Of a stretch of DNA of 64,000 bases, positions 45,959-53,096 are shown piece after piece. This DNA is from Alphaproteobacteria bacterium. GTDB taxonomy: Bacteria > Pseudomonadota > Alphaproteobacteria > UBA9219. The stretch's first letter is position 1; the number at the start of each line of letters is the position of its first letter. The stretch covers positions 1-64,000 of the forward strand of contig JAGWIK010000001.1 in NCBI GenBank assembly GCA_028866275.1, written 5' to 3'. The translations under genes were made by a program, and so were the position numbers. The notes below the pieces were generated by a model. It was not told the DNA's origin. It did no database searches and saw nothing but the letters and a program-made list of their open reading frames with translations.

Positions 45959-47977
45959 ATGTTGCCGTTCATGTTGCAGGGTATAGGCGCGTTGCTGGTT
46001 CTGGCCGTTGCGGCTGCGGCGTCCGGACGCAAAGGTTCCGGTTTCGTCTATCCCCTCGCCTTGTTGGCCTGTCTCGCCCTGCTGGGCGCGGATGCGATGT
46101 CGTTGGTCGGCGTTATGCCGGCGGAAAAATGCGCGCTTCCTTTCGGCCTTCCCCATGTCGGCGTGCATCTGCGGCTTGACCTGTTATCGGCCGCGTTCGG
46201 CGTCGTCGTCAATCTGGGTGGCGCGCTGGCCAGCCTGTACGGCATCGGATACGGGCGCGGCGAACGCGAACCGATGCGCGTGCTGCCGTTCTTTCCGGCC
46301 TTCATCGCGGGTATGAATCTGGTGCTGCTGGCCGACGACGCCTTTACCTTTCTGGTGGCGTGGGAATTTATGTCGCTGACGTCGTGGGCGATGGTGGTGT
46401 CGAACCACCGCGAAGCCGCCAACCGCGCCGCCGCCTATATCTATTTGCTTATGGCCAATGCCGGCACGGCGGCCTTGTTGTTTGCGTTCGGCGTTCTGGC
46501 GGGCGCGGGCGGCGATTACGGCTTCGACGCCATCCGTGCGGCGGCGCATCCAGGGTGGGTCGTCGGCGTCGCGGTGGCGATGGTATTGATCGGCGCAGGG
46601 TCGAAGGCGGGCGTCATGCCGCTGCATGTCTGGCTGCCGCAGGCGCACCCCGCCGCGCCCAGCCATGTGTCTGGTTTGATGAGCGGCGTGATGACCAAAG
46701 TGGCGATTTATGCCTTGATCCGCGTCATTTTCGACTTGTGCGGCAGCGGCGCGCATGCCGTGGCGTGGGGCTGGTCGGTTCCGATGCTGGTGCTGGGCGG
46801 TGTGACGGCGGCTTTTGGCATCCTGTATGCGTTGATGCAGCGCGACATTAAAAAATTGCTGGCCTATTCGACGGTGGAAAATATCGGATTCATCCTCGCC
46901 GCGCTGGGACTGGCCTTGGCTTTTCGCGCCAGCGCAATGCCCGTGGCGGCCGCGGTGGCGATGACGGCGGCATTGTTGCATGTCTTCAACCACTCTTTAT
47001 TCAAGAATTTGCTGTTCATGGGGGCGGGCGCGGTCGATCATGCTATGGGTACGCGCGACATCGAAAAAATGGGCGGGCTTATTCACCGCATGCCCGCGAC
47101 CGCGGTGATGGTTCTGGTCGCCTGCGCCGCCGCTGCGGCCTTGCCGCCGCTCAACGGCTTTGTGTCGGAATGGATGATTTTCCAATCCGTGCTGGCCAGC
47201 CCCGCGCTGCCGCAATCGATCATGCATTTCCTTGTACCGGCGGTGGGTATTCTGCTGGTGCTGGCGGCGGCTTTGGCGGCGTCGGGTTTCGTGCGCTTCT
47301 TCGGCATTGCCTTTCTGGGGCGCGCGCGCAGCGCCGAAGCCGGCCACGCTCACGAAGCCGATGGTTTTTCGCGCGCCGCGATGGGCGGTCTGGCGGTTCT
47401 GTGCGTCGTCGCCGGACTTGTGGCCGCGCCGTTGGCAACTGTTCTGGCTCCCTTGGTGCAGACCTTGACGGGGGGCGCGTTGCCCGATCAACAAACCGGC
47501 CCGGCCTTGTTGTCGCTGACGCCGTTCGACGCCGCGCGTAGTTCCTATAACGCGCCCTTGCTGCTGTTCTTTATCCTGTCGTCGGGATCGCTGACGGCAT
47601 GGATCATTCATATGTTCGCGTCGCGCCGCACCCGCCCTGCGCCCATCTGGGATTGCGGTTTTCCCTATGCCAACCCGATCGCGCAATATACGGCGTCGAG
47701 CTTCGCCCAGCCGATCCGCCGCATTTTCGGTTCCGTGCTGTTCCGCGCGCGCGAAGATATTGATATGCCGGCGCCGGACGAGATGCGCGCCGCGTCGATC
47801 AAGGTTCCCATGGTCGACCTGTTATGGAACCGGCTGTATGTGCCGGTGACCAAAGCCGTGTGGATTGTGGCCGACAAAGTCAATGCCGTGCAGGGCTTTT
47901 CGATCCGCCGCTATCTGGTTCTGATGTTCGCGGCGTTGATTATCCTTCTGGTCGTGGTGGCGTTATGGCATTCCTGA
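45959..47977 (+). CDS. hyfB: Hydrogenase-4-type membrane subunit B (NuoL-like, HyfB)
   Basis: Large polytopic antiporter-like subunit (672 residues, about 16 hydrophobic segments) related to HyfB/HycC and NuoL. Seen: the TM5-type glutamate in FLVAWEFMSLTSWAMV, the proton-channel lysine in IGAGSKAGVMPLHVWLPQAHPAAPSHVSGLMSGVMTKVAIYALIR, DIKKLLAYSTVENIGFI and FNHSLFKNLLFMGAG. It should carry ions across the membrane when the peripheral arm is reduced. The C-terminal part (WDCGFPYANPIAQYTASSFAQPIRRIFG) is specific for HyfB-type subunits. First gene of a six-gene operon; its stop overlaps the next gene by 13 nt. Confidence 0.88.
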   Translation: MLPFMLQGIGALLVLAVAAAASGRKGSGFVYPLALLACLALLGADAMSLVGVMPAEKCALPFGLPHVGVHLRLDLLSAAFGVVVNLGGALASLYGIGYGRGEREPMRVLPFFPAFIAGMNLVLLADDAFTFLVAWEFMSLTSWAMVVSNHREAANRAAAYIYLLMANAGTAALLFAFGVLAGAGGDYGFDAIRAAAHPGWVVGVAVAMVLIGAGSKAGVMPLHVWLPQAHPAAPSHVSGLMSGVMTKVAIYALIRVIFDLCGSGAHAVAWGWSVPMLVLGGVTAAFGILYALMQRDIKKLLAYSTVENIGFILAALGLALAFRASAMPVAAAVAMTAALLHVFNHSLFKNLLFMGAGAVDHAMGTRDIEKMGGLIHRMPATAVMVLVACAAAAALPPLNGFVSEWMIFQSVLASPALPQSIMHFLVPAVGILLVLAAALAASGFVRFFGIAFLGRARSAEAGHAHEADGFSRAAMGGLAVLCVVAGLVAAPLATVLAPLVQTLTGGALPDQQTGPALLSLTPFDAARSSYNAPLLLFFILSSGSLTAWIIHMFASRRTRPAPIWDCGFPYANPIAQYTASSFAQPIRRIFGSVLFRAREDIDMPAPDEMRAASIKVPMVDLLWNRLYVPVTKAVWIVADKVNAVQGFSIRRYLVLMFAALIILLVVVALWHS

Positions 47978-48930
47978 ACTCCAACCTTGTCGCGCAACTG
48001 GCGCAGATGTTTCTGGTCGTCCTTGTCGCGCCGTTGGTCACCGGCGTCGTGCGCAAGGTCAAGGCGCGGTTGTTGCGCCGCCGCGGCGCGTCGGTGCTGC
48101 AACCCTATTACGATTTGTGGAAATTGATGCGCAAGGAAACGGTGCCCGCGCCCAACGCGTCGTGGCTTTATCACGCCGCGCCCTATGCCCTGTTCGCGCT
48201 GACATGGGTGGCGGCGGCCTTGGTGCCGACTTTCGCCACGGGGCTGGGTTTCAACTGGGCGGCGGATCTGATCGTCATCGTCGGTTTGCTGGCGGCGGCG
48301 CGTTTCGCGCTGGCGCTGGCGGGCATGGATATCGGAACCGGCTTCGGCGGTCTGGGCGCGTCGCGCGAAATGATGATTTCCAGCTTCGCCGAACCGGCCA
48401 TGCTGATGGTGATGTTCGCGCTGGCGCTGGAAGCGGGCACGACGCAGTTGTCGTCGATTGCCGGATATCTGATTGCGCATCCGGCGGCGTTGCACATTTC
48501 ACTGGCGCTGGCTCTGGTGTCCTACATCATCGTGCTGCTGGCTGAAAATGCGCGCATTCCCGTTGACAACCCGTCAACGCATCTGGAACTGACGATGGTT
48601 CACGAAGCGATGGTTCTGGAATATTCGGGCCGCCATCTGGCGATGATCGAAGCGGCGGCGTTTTTAAAGCTTGTGCTTTACATGTCGATTTTCTCCTGCC
48701 TGTTCGTGCCGTTCGGTATGGTGACGTCCGACCGCACCGTGGCGACAATGGCGGCGGGGGCGGCATTGTATGTCGGTAAATTACTGTTGGGCGCGGCGGC
48801 GTTGGCGGTTGGCGAAACCAGCGTGGCTAAAATGCGCGTCTTCCGCGTCGGCGAATTTCTGGGCGTCGGTCTGGTGCTGGGGCTGTTGGCGCTGTTGCTG
48901 CATTTCGTCGCGGCGGCGGGGGTGAATTGA
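47965..48930 (+). CDS. hyfC: Hydrogenase-4-type membrane subunit C (NuoH-like, HyfC)
   Basis: NuoH/HycD-like subunit that couples the peripheral arm to the membrane arm at the quinone-pocket position. The 321 residues have about eight helices and the hallmark loops RRRGASVLQPYYDLWKLMRKE, MDIGTGFGGLGASREMMISSFAEPAML and ENARIPVDNPSTHLELTMVHEAMVLEYSG. The ATG at 47965 lies within the end of hyfB; the track start upstream reads hyfB in another frame. Intact conserved acidic and arginine residues suggest a functional energy-coupling subunit. Confidence 0.88.
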   Translation: MAFLNSNLVAQLAQMFLVVLVAPLVTGVVRKVKARLLRRRGASVLQPYYDLWKLMRKETVPAPNASWLYHAAPYALFALTWVAAALVPTFATGLGFNWAADLIVIVGLLAAARFALALAGMDIGTGFGGLGASREMMISSFAEPAMLMVMFALALEAGTTQLSSIAGYLIAHPAALHISLALALVSYIIVLLAENARIPVDNPSTHLELTMVHEAMVLEYSGRHLAMIEAAAFLKLVLYMSIFSCLFVPFGMVTSDRTVATMAAGAALYVGKLLLGAAALAVGETSVAKMRVFRVGEFLGVGLVLGLLALLLHFVAAAGVN

Positions 48931-48931
48931 C

Positions 48932-49600
48932 ATGAATACGCTTGGGTTCGATATTTCGCATTTCCTTGCCGGCGGCATGGTTGTCATCAGTTTTATGCTT
49001 TTGTATCAGCGCCGGTTGTCGAGCCTGCTCGACATCTTCGCTATTCAGGCGGCCGTGCTGGCCTTCGCCGTGGCCTGGCAGGCGCATATCCAGAACGCGC
49101 CGCATCTCTATATCACCGCTTTTATCGCGCTGACGGTCAAGGCGGGCGTTATTCCCGCCGCATTGCGCCGCATCACGCGCAAGCTGAAGATCCACCACGA
49201 AATCGACGAAGTCGTCGGCATGGGGCGGTTGCTGTTGTCGGGCGTCGCGCTGGTCGCGCTGGCCATTCTGGTCATGACGCCGGTGACAATGGATGCCTCG
49301 GCCTTCACGCGCGAAGATCTGGCCTTCGCTTTGTCGGTCATGCTGCTGGGCTTTTTGATGATGATCAGCCGCCACAACGCGGTCAGCCAGATCGTCGGAT
49401 TCATGTCGATGGAAAACGGGCTGGTGCTGGCCGCAACCGGGGCCAGCGGCATGCCGTTGGTGGTCGAAATCAGCGTCGCTTTTTCCATCCTGATCGCCTT
49501 GTTCGTGTTCGGCACATTCATTTTCCGCATTCGCGAACGTTTCGATACGGTCGATGTCAACGCGCTTGACCGTTTCCGGGGAGAAAGAAACAATGGTTGA
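48932..49600 (+). CDS. hyfE: Hydrogenase-4-type membrane subunit E (NuoK-like, HyfE)
   Basis: 222-residue membrane protein like HyfE, whose C-terminal half corresponds to NuoK. It shows LLYQRRLSSLLDIFAIQAAVLAFAVAWQAH, FIALTVKAGVIPAALRRI and SQIVGFMSMENGLVLAATGASGMPLVVEISVAFSILIALFVFG, including the buried glutamates expected in NuoK-type proton channels. It begins 1 nt after hyfC, and its stop overlaps the start of hyfF by 8 nt. Confidence 0.87.
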   Translation: MNTLGFDISHFLAGGMVVISFMLLYQRRLSSLLDIFAIQAAVLAFAVAWQAHIQNAPHLYITAFIALTVKAGVIPAALRRITRKLKIHHEIDEVVGMGRLLLSGVALVALAILVMTPVTMDASAFTREDLAFALSVMLLGFLMMISRHNAVSQIVGFMSMENGLVLAATGASGMPLVVEISVAFSILIALFVFGTFIFRIRERFDTVDVNALDRFRGERNNG

Positions 49601-51044
49601 ATTAAGCACGGTTTCCAGCGCGGTCTATACCGTCGCCATTCCGGCTGTTGCCGCCTTGCTTTTGGCCGTCATGCGCGGCTATCGCACGTCGGCGTGGCTG
49701 AACGTTCTGGCGTCGTTCCTGACGTTTGTGGCCGGGGTTGCTTTATTCTGGACGCCGCGCCCGCTCAACGACATTTTCATCGTCGACGATTTTAATATCT
49801 ATCTTCTCGTTCTCAATACCTTTGTCGGCTTTACCACCAGCCTGTTCAGCGCCAGCTATATCCGCCACGAACTGGAAGACAAACGCCTGACGCCGCGCAT
49901 GCTGCGTTTCTACCATTCGATGTTTCAGGTCATGATGGGGGCGATGAATCTGTCGCTCATCGCCAACAATATGGGCCTGATGTGGGTCGGGCTGGAAGTC
50001 GCCACTTTGGTCACCGTGTTGATGGTCGGCATTTACCGCACCGAAGCGGCGATCGAAGCGGCGTGGAAATATTTCATCCTCGCCAGCGTCGGCATCAGCC
50101 TGGCGTTCTTCGGCACGATTCTGATTTATCTCGCGGCCCAGAAAGTATTGGGCGAAGGCCTGCCGTCGATGGCGTGGAGCCGTCTGGTCGCCGCCGCGCC
50201 GTCGCTCGACGCGCCGCTGCTCAGCCTCGCTTTCATTTTCTGCCTTGTCGGGTACGGCACCAAGGTCGGGCTTGCGCCTTTGCATGCGTGGTTGCCCGAC
50301 GCCCATGCCGAAGGGCCGACGCCGGTTTCTGCGGTGCTGTCGGGGTTGTTGCTCAATGTCGCTTTGTACGCCTTGCTGCGCGTCAAAATCGTGCTGTCGG
50401 CCAGCACCGCGCCCTTGCATCCGGGGCCGATTTTGATGGTCATGGGATTGTCTTCGCTGTTGTTCGCGGCGTTCATGTTGTACCGGCGGCGCGACATCAA
50501 ACGCTTTTTCGCCTATTCCTCGATCGAGCATATGGGCATCATTACCTTTGCGTTCGGCATGGGCGGGCCGCTGGCCAATCTGGCGGGGTTGTTGCATATG
50601 ACGATGCACAGCCTGACAAAATCCGGCATTTTCTTTGCCGTCGGCCATATCGCGCAAACCAAAGGCACGCAGAAATTCGCAGGCATTCGCGGCCTGAGCG
50701 TCAGCAACCCGATGCTGGCCTGGGGGCTTGCGCTTGGCGTGTTGGCCATTTCCGGCCTGCCACCCTTTGGCGTGTTCATGAGCGAATTCCTGCTGGTCAC
50801 CACGACCTTCGCGCGCGAACCCGCGCTGGCCGTTTTGCTGGTGCTGGGGCTGGTGGTCGCGTTCGGCGCGATGCTGATGCGGCTTCAGGATGTGTTGTTC
50901 GGCGAACCGACGCCGGAAAACCACAAAACCTATGCGTCGCCTTTGCCGTTTCTGGCGCATTTCGCGCTGGTGCTGACGGCGGGCATTTTTCTGCCTGAAC
51001 CGCTTTTGCGCTGGTTCGGGCAGGTTTCAGCCTTGCTGAAATAA
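49593..51044 (+). CDS. hyfF: Hydrogenase-4-type membrane subunit F (NuoN/NuoL-like, HyfF)
   Basis: Second antiporter-like subunit (483 residues, ~14 TM). Key features are MWVGLEVATLVTVLMVGIYRTEAAIEAAWKYFILASVG with the TM5 glutamate, GYGTKVGLAPLHAWLPDAHAEGPTPVSAVLSGLLLNVALYALLR with the channel lysine and histidine, and DIKRFFAYSSIEHMGIITFAFG. The ATG at 49593 has GGGAGAAAG upstream; the track start 13 codons earlier lies in hyfE. A third antiporter-like subunit (HyfD), found in full Hyf operons, is missing here. Confidence 0.88.
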   Translation: MVELSTVSSAVYTVAIPAVAALLLAVMRGYRTSAWLNVLASFLTFVAGVALFWTPRPLNDIFIVDDFNIYLLVLNTFVGFTTSLFSASYIRHELEDKRLTPRMLRFYHSMFQVMMGAMNLSLIANNMGLMWVGLEVATLVTVLMVGIYRTEAAIEAAWKYFILASVGISLAFFGTILIYLAAQKVLGEGLPSMAWSRLVAAAPSLDAPLLSLAFIFCLVGYGTKVGLAPLHAWLPDAHAEGPTPVSAVLSGLLLNVALYALLRVKIVLSASTAPLHPGPILMVMGLSSLLFAAFMLYRRRDIKRFFAYSSIEHMGIITFAFGMGGPLANLAGLLHMTMHSLTKSGIFFAVGHIAQTKGTQKFAGIRGLSVSNPMLAWGLALGVLAISGLPPFGVFMSEFLLVTTTFAREPALAVLLVLGLVVAFGAMLMRLQDVLFGEPTPENHKTYASPLPFLAHFALVLTAGIFLPEPLLRWFGQVSALLK

Positions 51045-51054
51045 GGGGGCTTTC

Positions 51055-52581
51055 ATGTTTTTTTCCACCCAACCCGTTTCGACCAAGCCGTGGCCGCGCT
51101 ATATCGTCGATGCCGCGACATGGAACAAATGCGCCGACGCTTTTGCGGCGGGTACGCACAGCCTGTTCGGTCTGTGGGCCGACAGCCATCTGGACAATCC
51201 GGCGGCGGGTGCTGAAATCCATATGGCCATTTATGAAAACGCCACGCACAAACTGGCCGTGGCGACATTGCCCGCGCCGGATGGCGTGTTTCCGTCGGTC
51301 GCGCGCAAACATGCGCCCGCCGCGCGGCTGGAACGCACGATTATGGATATGCACGGGCTGCGCGCCGAGGGCGCCGTCGATACCCGCGCCTGGCTCGACC
51401 ACGGCAAATGGCGACAGGCGCAGCCGCTGGCCGTCCAGCCCGCGCCGCGCGGCGATGTTGCCACCGCCGTGGCCGATTACGCGTTTTTACCGGTCGACGG
51501 CGAAGGGCTGCACGAAGTCCCCGTCGGCCCCATTCACGCCGGCATCATCGAACCCGGCCATTTCCGTTTTTCCGCCAATGGCGAAGCGGTGGTGCGGCTC
51601 GAAGAAAAACTGGGCTATGTCCACAAAGGCATTGAAAAACTGTTTATCGGCGCGGATATCGCGCGCGGCGCCAAACTGGCGGGCCGCATTTCGGGCGACA
51701 GCACGGTGGCCTATGCCTTTGCCTATGCCCGGGCCGTCGAACAGGCGACCGGCACGGTTGCGCCGCCGCGCGCGCTTTATCTGCGCGCCCTGATGGCCGA
51801 ACTGGAACGCATCGCCAACCATTTCGGCGATGTCGGCGCGATCTGCAACGACGCGGCCTTTGCCTTTATGCTGGCGCATACCGGCATTTTGCGCGAAGAA
51901 ACGCTGCAACTGTGCCACGCCCTGTTCGGACACCGTTTGATGATGGATGTCATCGTGCCCGGCGGGGTGACGGCGGATATCGATGCGGCGGGCGCGGATA
52001 AAGTGCGCGCGTGGATGGCCGCGGCCGAAAAACGCTTCGATAAATTGATGCGCATATACGACGATGCCGCGTCGCTGAAGGACCGCACGAACAACACCGG
52101 TCATGTATCGCGCAAACTGGTCGACCGTTTCGGCGCGGGCGGTTATGTCGGCCGCGCGTCGGGCCGCGCTTTCGACGCGCGCAAAAATCTGCCCTATGCG
52201 CCTTATGACACATTGAATTTCGACATGCCGGTGCTGCATACCGGCGATGTCAATGCGCGGTTGTGGATCCGGCGTATCGAAATCGCGCAAAGCTTCGCGA
52301 TGATCGCGCAACTTCTCGACGCGATGCCTGCGGGCGCTCTTTGCGCGCCTGTCGCCGCGACAACGGCTGGCGAAGGCATCGGCGTGGTCGAAGCGTTTCG
52401 CGGCGATGTGTTGGTGTGGCTGCGCCTCGGCGCCGACGGCAACATCGCGCGTTGCCATCCGCGCGATGCGTCGTGGTTTCAATGGCCGCTGCTCGAAGCG
52501 TCGATCGAAAACAACATCATCGCGGATTTTCCGCTGTGTAATAAATCCTTCAACTGTTCCTATGCGGGGCATGATCTATGA
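51055..52581 (+). CDS. hyfG: Hydrogenase large-subunit homologue lacking NiFe ligands (HyfG/NuoCD-like)
   Basis: 508-residue fusion of a NuoC-like N-terminal domain (~1-125) and a NuoD/HycE-like domain. VGPIHAGIIEPGHFRF and LEEKLGYVHKGIEKL match group 4 hydrogenase large subunits. At the first metal-ligand loop, however, the protein reads GRISGDST (~210-217) where hydrogenases have RVCGICGF, so both cysteines are replaced by serine. At the C-terminus NKSFNCSYAGHDL replaces DPCxxC, leaving only C501. With three of four ligands missing it cannot hold a normal NiFe site. It is probably a structural or quinone-site-type subunit of an Ehr-like complex. hyfI starts within its stop codon. Confidence 0.85.
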   Translation: MFFSTQPVSTKPWPRYIVDAATWNKCADAFAAGTHSLFGLWADSHLDNPAAGAEIHMAIYENATHKLAVATLPAPDGVFPSVARKHAPAARLERTIMDMHGLRAEGAVDTRAWLDHGKWRQAQPLAVQPAPRGDVATAVADYAFLPVDGEGLHEVPVGPIHAGIIEPGHFRFSANGEAVVRLEEKLGYVHKGIEKLFIGADIARGAKLAGRISGDSTVAYAFAYARAVEQATGTVAPPRALYLRALMAELERIANHFGDVGAICNDAAFAFMLAHTGILREETLQLCHALFGHRLMMDVIVPGGVTADIDAAGADKVRAWMAAAEKRFDKLMRIYDDAASLKDRTNNTGHVSRKLVDRFGAGGYVGRASGRAFDARKNLPYAPYDTLNFDMPVLHTGDVNARLWIRRIEIAQSFAMIAQLLDAMPAGALCAPVAATTAGEGIGVVEAFRGDVLVWLRLGADGNIARCHPRDASWFQWPLLEASIENNIIADFPLCNKSFNCSYAGHDL

Positions 52582-53096
52582 AAGACATGATGCTCAAATC
52601 GCTGGTGACGCCCGCCGTCACCATTCCCGCCCCCAAACCCGACGACGCGGCTTTGGCCGAGCTGGCGCGCGCCGTCAACGAACGGTCGCGGCAATTACTG
52701 GGCCATTCGCTGGCCATTCGCGAAGTCGATGCCGGGTCGTGCAACGGGTGCGAATTGGAAATTCACGCCATTAACAACGCCATTTACGATGTCGAACGTT
52801 TCGGCATTAAATTCACGGCGTCACCCAAACATGCCGATGTTTTGCTGGTGACGGGGCCGGTCACCGAAAATATGAAATTCGCGCTGCAACGTGCCTATGA
52901 CGTCACGCCCGACCCCAAATGGGTCGTGGCCGTCGGCGATTGCGCCTGTACCGGCGGTGTGTTCGCGGGTTCCTACGCCTGCGCCGGCAGCGTCAAAGAC
53001 ATCGTGCCGGTCGATCTGCATATCAAAGGCTGCCCGCCGACGCCTCTCGACCTGTTGCGCGGGTTGCTGGCTTTGATGGAAACCGTTTCACGCTGA
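52578..53096 (+). CDS. hyfI: Hydrogenase small-subunit/NuoB-like Fe-S protein (HyfI)
   Basis: 172-residue subunit homologous to HyfI/HycG and NuoB, holding the terminal [4Fe-4S] cluster. The ligands are C55 and C58 in AGSCNGCELEIHA, C122 or C124 in VGDCACTGGVF, and C152 in IKGCPPTPLDLL, an intact set. Thus electron transfer to this cluster should still work, although the partner active site in HyfG is lost. It is the last gene of the operon (ATGA overlap with hyfG; convergent 9-nt overlap with the next gene). No HyfA/HyfH ferredoxin subunit and no hyp maturation genes are present. Confidence 0.9.
   Translation: MKDMMLKSLVTPAVTIPAPKPDDAALAELARAVNERSRQLLGHSLAIREVDAGSCNGCELEIHAINNAIYDVERFGIKFTASPKHADVLLVTGPVTENMKFALQRAYDVTPDPKWVVAVGDCACTGGVFAGSYACAGSVKDIVPVDLHIKGCPPTPLDLLRGLLALMETVSR

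Follow-up and report, generated by a model that had tools for sequence, protein, structure and literature searches.

What does a protein do that looks like the large subunit of a group 4 [NiFe] hydrogenase and lacks the cysteines by which such a subunit binds its metal? Such a protein is encoded in the window, i.e. the whole stretch of 64,000 nucleotides of an alphaproteobacterial contig analysed here, and an earlier note on this DNA had proposed that its pocket was repurposed, perhaps for a quinone or another small molecule, rather than simply decaying. Loss of both CxxC motifs is a published hallmark of the Ehr (energy-converting hydrogenase-related) and Ehr-like complexes, which were reported in Sulfobacillus, Riflemargulisbacteria, Nitrospira, ammonia-oxidising archaea, Geobacter and M. 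tuberculosis (PMC4378227, PMC6349859, PMC7305129, PMC10284858, PMC10432482, PMC13194489, PMC6728331). The loss of the NiFe ligands is already known and defines the Ehr family; the residue set is defined here. Coppi 2005 and Marreiros 2013 are said to be the founding Ehr papers. In the literature searched, we found no biochemical function for any Ehr complex.

Results

The large subunit gene hyfG/ehrL (51055..52581, + strand) translates as one intact open reading frame of 508 aa, a NuoC- and NuoD-like fusion matched by both PF00329 and PF00346. Its best match in the PDB, by sequence and by fold, is 7z0s_E, the HycE large subunit of the E. coli formate hydrogenlyase, followed by sequence by archaeal Mbh and the 49-kDa subunits of complex I. 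The score against the NuoD model TIGR01962 was 154 bits at a cut-off of 459, and none of the NCBIfam models is dedicated to EhrL or fits it, the NuoD cut-offs lying far above the score of HyfG. In the public plasmid records H1, H11 and H32, EhrL is annotated inconsistently, as NADH-quinone oxidoreductase subunit C, nickel-dependent hydrogenase large subunit or hydrogenase expression protein HypE.

The ligand register was read from an alignment of 119 Ehr rows, 10 NuoD sequences and true group 4 hydrogenases from the sampled genomes (L132-L134 of the HycE type, and L136). Codons 210-217 (51682..51705, + strand) encode GRISGDST, in which R211 to S216 align with the RVCGIC loop of the group 4 hydrogenases and with NuoD, so that C241 and C244 of HycE become Ser213 and Ser216, next to an Ehr-specific Asp215. 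Both serines had been recognised in the earlier note, as had the preceding GYVHKGIEKL, which we locate at residues 187-196. The C-terminus NKSFNCSYAGHDL (residues 496-508; 52540..52578, + strand, just 5' of the stop codon) contains the Ehr-specific K497 and N500 and aligns to HycE without gaps, NCSYAGHDL standing against DPCYSCTDR, in wider context VADFPL-CNKSFNCSYSGHDL against VSDAPL-IIGSLDPCYSCTDR, and as the C-terminal pair VADFPLCNKSFNCSYSGHDL against VSDAPLIIGSLDPCYSCTDR. HycE residues D529, P530, C531, C534 and R537 thereby correspond to N500, C501, S502, G505 and L508, the last residue of HyfG. The one cysteine of DPCxxC that seemed to be kept owed this to an error of register: Cys501 lies at the proline position and is not a ligand, and 10 of the 119 rows have Leu, Gly or Pro in its place, while the second ligand pair is Ser502 and Gly505. 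Judged by this alignment, HyfG has lost four of four NiFe ligands (S213, S216, S502, G505), and RISGDS and NCSYAG take the place of the RxCGxC and DPCxxC motifs of a group 4 [NiFe] hydrogenase. HyfG ends where mature HycE ends, at the position of Arg537, after which HycI cleaves HycE. The absence of a HycE-type C-terminal maturation tail from HyfG is supportive only, since L136, a true group 4 member, is tailless as well.

The replacements are shared throughout the family. Position 213 is Ser in 117, Ala in one and Cys in one of the 119 Ehr rows, position 216 is Ser in 113, Ala in four and Met in two, and D215, D259, K497 and N500 are Ehr-specific and invariant (119 of 119). Among 60 aligned relatives RxSGDS is without exception, which bears out the conservation that the earlier note had wished to see checked; neither chance nor the two refutations that it had named, a recent degenerate copy and a sequencing error, can explain replacements found across these rows. 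Only one row, the divergent Ehr L137 (G061), has a cysteine in the first ligand column (RSCGDST).

Around the former metal site, features of hydrogenases and of complex I are combined. The β1–β2 loop H161-AGIIEPG-H169 (51535..51561, + strand) carries the hydrogenase glutamate as E166 and has I165 at the position of the complex I His, and the canopy arginine Arg449 (52399..52401, + strand) is kept in all Ehr. From the proton path and canopy described for HycE (PMC9474812), HyfG retains E166 (HycE E193), H256 (H284), R367 (R395), E409 (E437) and R449 (R478), while N255 and D266 match NuoD of complex I and not the hydrogenases. The residues that contact the quinone head group in complex I are absent, the loop His being Ile165 and the Tyr of RLDY being Gly214. 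At the canopy Asp that hydrogenases have in common with complex I (HycE D529; PMC9474812), every one of the 119 Ehr rows has Asn, which is Asn500 in HyfG. Because the ligands are lost, the His and Tyr are absent and Ehr-specific invariants are present, the HyfG pocket is no NiFe site, and no quinone site of the canonical kind either.

AlphaFold was applied to the single HyfG chain, without the small subunit. With close relatives only, pLDDT stayed below 50 at residues 142-187 and 489-508, which are exactly the pocket. After hydrogenases and NuoD were added to the alignment, the mean pLDDT was 91 and the pocket segments were folded, a rise that partly reflects the homology assumed by including these proteins in the input. 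The best structural match of the model was 7z0s_E (TM 0.92/0.88, 516 columns), and the TM score with E. coli NuoCD was 0.90. The putative geometry of the pocket is what we infer from the alignment.

HyfG is encoded in an operon of six same-strand genes, hyfB-C-E-F-G-I. The membrane part comprises the antiporter-type hyfB, ehrA-like (45959..47977, + strand, 672 aa; NF005086 hydrogenase 4 subunit B, 778 bits at a cut-off of 667), the NuoH-like hyfC (47965..48930, + strand; PF00146, 121.6 bits), the NuoK-like hyfE (48932..49600, + strand, 222 aa; NF008556 hydrogenase 4 membrane subunit, 93 bits, under the cut-off of 136) and the antiporter-type hyfF (49593..51044, + strand, 483 aa; NF005043 hydrogenase 4 subunit F, 778 bits at a cut-off of 533). 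Conserved are the transmembrane Glu and Lys residues of HyfB (E136, K216, K247, K349, E404) and HyfF (E135, K224, K343, E398), as in the ion-translocating superfamily, and E136, E144, E195, E209, E215 and E220 of HyfC; ion pumping itself is predicted from the antiporter residues. The small subunit gene hyfI/ehrS, NuoB/HycG-like (52578..53096, + strand, 172 aa; PF01058, 115.9 bits), keeps the [4Fe-4S] ligands C55, C58, C122 and C152 in the CxxC arrangement of hydrogenases; across 107 sequences these ligands are conserved to 97% or more. At the relatives' loci, where GC-rich DNA makes antisense ORFs confusing, ORFs were picked by codon scoring; the gene order is complete in 58 loci and truncated in most others.

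A scan of 118 loci for a two-cluster ferredoxin gene within 3 kb of the operon found none and returned six chance-like single-motif matches, and in the hydrogenase loci L132-L134 the same scan recovered the gene at the HycF position, flanked by the genes of the large and the small subunit. Neither an NADH module nor NuoI is encoded in the six-gene operon. Flanking genes were considered as a clue to the donor and rejected, as the neighbours vary between lineages and only an upstream XRE-type HTH gene recurs. This small gene (about 74-99 aa, MITAAQLRAARALLGIDQRELA...) was seen by motif scan upstream of hyfB in 40 of 64 loci, e.g. L005, L011 and L012, sometimes overlapping hyfB, and is absent in the window; it probably encodes a regulator of the operon. 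A search 5' of hyfB found no sigma-70-like promoter.

HyfG was matched (E<=1e-45) in 67 of 349 sampled Pseudomonadota genomes. Five of these matches are about 30% identical, and three of the five (L132-L134), when read, proved to be true hydrogenases of the HycE type, carrying RVCGIC and DPCYSC; the remaining 62 genomes have a homologue 40-59% identical, the motifs having been read in part of them. Of nine further genomes sampled from the window's genus, two (G004, G009) have a homologue. The operon is patchy in the window's family (G000-G023) and its copies are spread over several Ehr clades, which suggests horizontal transfer or repeated loss.

In the tree, Ehr forms a clade of its own apart from the NiFe hydrogenases and NuoD of complex I (support 99 by a quick method), the placement of the very divergent L135 being unsure. 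Loss of the ligands is therefore ancestral to the sampled family. All Ehr relatives examined have intact reading frames, and dN/dS between close pairs was 0.07-0.30, indicating purifying selection; the ligand loss is thus ancient and selectively maintained. The large subunit of L135/L093 (G058:C1) is far more divergent (26% identity), with neither the ligand motifs nor the usual Ehr motifs, and its HyfI-like partner retains the cluster cysteines; this is possibly another NiFe-less branch.

The window's genome (2.19 Mb, 78 contigs) is 100% complete. It encodes no HypD, of the Hyp maturation expected for group 4, and no other PF00374 protein that could be a second NiFe hydrogenase. A formate dehydrogenase and a MoCoBD_1 protein (CO dehydrogenase) were likewise not found in it, and its sole PF00384 (molybdopterin-family) match, about 4 kb from nuoD, is most likely NuoG of the full-type complex I that the genome encodes. 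This makes it unlikely that the organism turns over H2 or acts as a formate hydrogenlyase producer of it.

Discussion

By sequence, HyfG is an EhrL: a group 4-homologous large subunit with non-Cys residues in all four ligand columns, in an operon of Hyf-like membrane subunits with large and small soluble subunits. The likeness to EhrL of Geobacter and mycobacteria was drawn from published descriptions, in which the pocket residues are not described; compared in this way, the systems share the Hyf-like membrane and soluble subunits and a CxxC-less group 4-like large subunit (PMC4378227, PMC6349859, PMC6728331, PMC10284858), and we found no difference in kind. With HycE of E. coli hydrogenase 3 (FHL) and HyfG of hydrogenase 4 the window protein has in common the fold, the NuoC-NuoD fusion, the β1–β2 Glu, the canopy Arg, the proton-path His, Arg and Glu and the CxxC-type cluster of the small subunit. 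Unlike them, it has none of the four NiFe ligands, Asn for the canopy Asp, no ferredoxin subunit and no C-terminal maturation tail. Complex I NuoCD/NuoD resembles it in fold, in the lack of a NiFe site, in the chain end and in N255 and D266; unlike complex I, the window complex has no quinone His and Tyr and no NADH module or NuoI in its operon, and its small subunit has the hydrogenase-type CxxC instead of tandem Cys. The six-subunit Ehr complex is thus placed by its predicted proteins as a NiFe-less member of the complex I/group 4 hydrogenase superfamily.

The identity of the complex, the loss of its ligands and the retention of electron-entry and pump residues are established by these comparisons, and we think it rather probable that it works as a redox-driven ion pump, passing electrons from a soluble donor to an acceptor in the former NiFe pocket. 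Donor, acceptor and pumping are the parts that we infer. A soluble low-potential donor, probably ferredoxin or similar and encoded outside the operon, would dock on HyfI and reduce its single N2-type [4Fe-4S] cluster directly, from which the electrons would enter the pocket of HyfG. There, a small polar acceptor or quinone-like molecule could be held by Asp215, Lys497, Asn500, Glu166 and Arg449, and its turnover would drive ion movement via HyfC and the antiporter-like HyfB and HyfF. The new pocket invariants D215, K497 and N500 agree with the proposal of a repurposed pocket. Since the complex has no ferredoxin subunit, electrons might enter it by quite another route; alternatively, the role of the pocket may not be a redox one.

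As an alternative acceptor, a quinone could occupy the former NiFe pocket via other residues, which would make the complex a donor:quinone oxidoreductase comparable to a ferredoxin-type complex I. The shared fold with NuoD, the canopy residues N255 and D266 and the full-type complex I in the genome, hence presumably a quinone pool, are in line with this view, which we nevertheless regard as doubtful: Ile165 and Gly214 replace the His and Tyr, leaving the quinone suggested earlier without specific support, and the canopy Asp has become an invariant Asn500. Clearly less probable is a complex that mainly transports ions for pH or Na+ homeostasis, with a structural or regulatory soluble arm and a pocket that binds a small effector without catalysis. 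Retained pump residues and the missing dedicated electron-input gene (118 loci) would suit such a transporter, and a role in pH homeostasis was suggested for the Ehr of Methylacidiphilum (PMC6688271), yet a non-redox role does not account for the consistent conservation of the [4Fe-4S] ligands in HyfI and of the internal proton path in HyfG.

Coupling to a separate formate or CO dehydrogenase, as in formate hydrogenlyase, was proposed for the Ehr of Riflemargulisbacteria (PMC6349859), and Ehr proteins of Geobacter increase on formate (PMC7894505); with a single, NuoG-like PF00384 protein, no MoCoBD_1 CO dehydrogenase and no H2-evolving hydrogenase in the genome, we consider this highly improbable here. 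The ligand loss alone could be read as a decaying hydrogenase copy or an assembly error, and a 2026 paper describes the Ehr of Geobacter as non-functional and subject to relaxed selection (PMC13194489), but this statement does not fit the Pseudomonadota members measured here, in which intact frames, invariant replacements, purifying selection and the conserved six-gene operon speak, as the earlier note had supposed, so strongly against simple decay that we hardly consider it.

Returning to the redox-driven pump, we tentatively propose a further step, namely that Ehr may add a third type of active site to the superfamily, in which D215, K497 and N500 would bind a substrate other than H2 or quinone, its reduction by electrons from a soluble donor, delivered directly at the N2-type cluster, being coupled to ion pumping. 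The residue set gives a short list of targets for mutation, and it speaks against annotating Ehr genes as H2 metabolism, to which annotation pipelines tend. This concerns a sizeable share of the Pseudomonadota (62 of the 349 sampled genomes), in addition to the nitrifiers, Geobacter and mycobacteria in which Ehr was reported.
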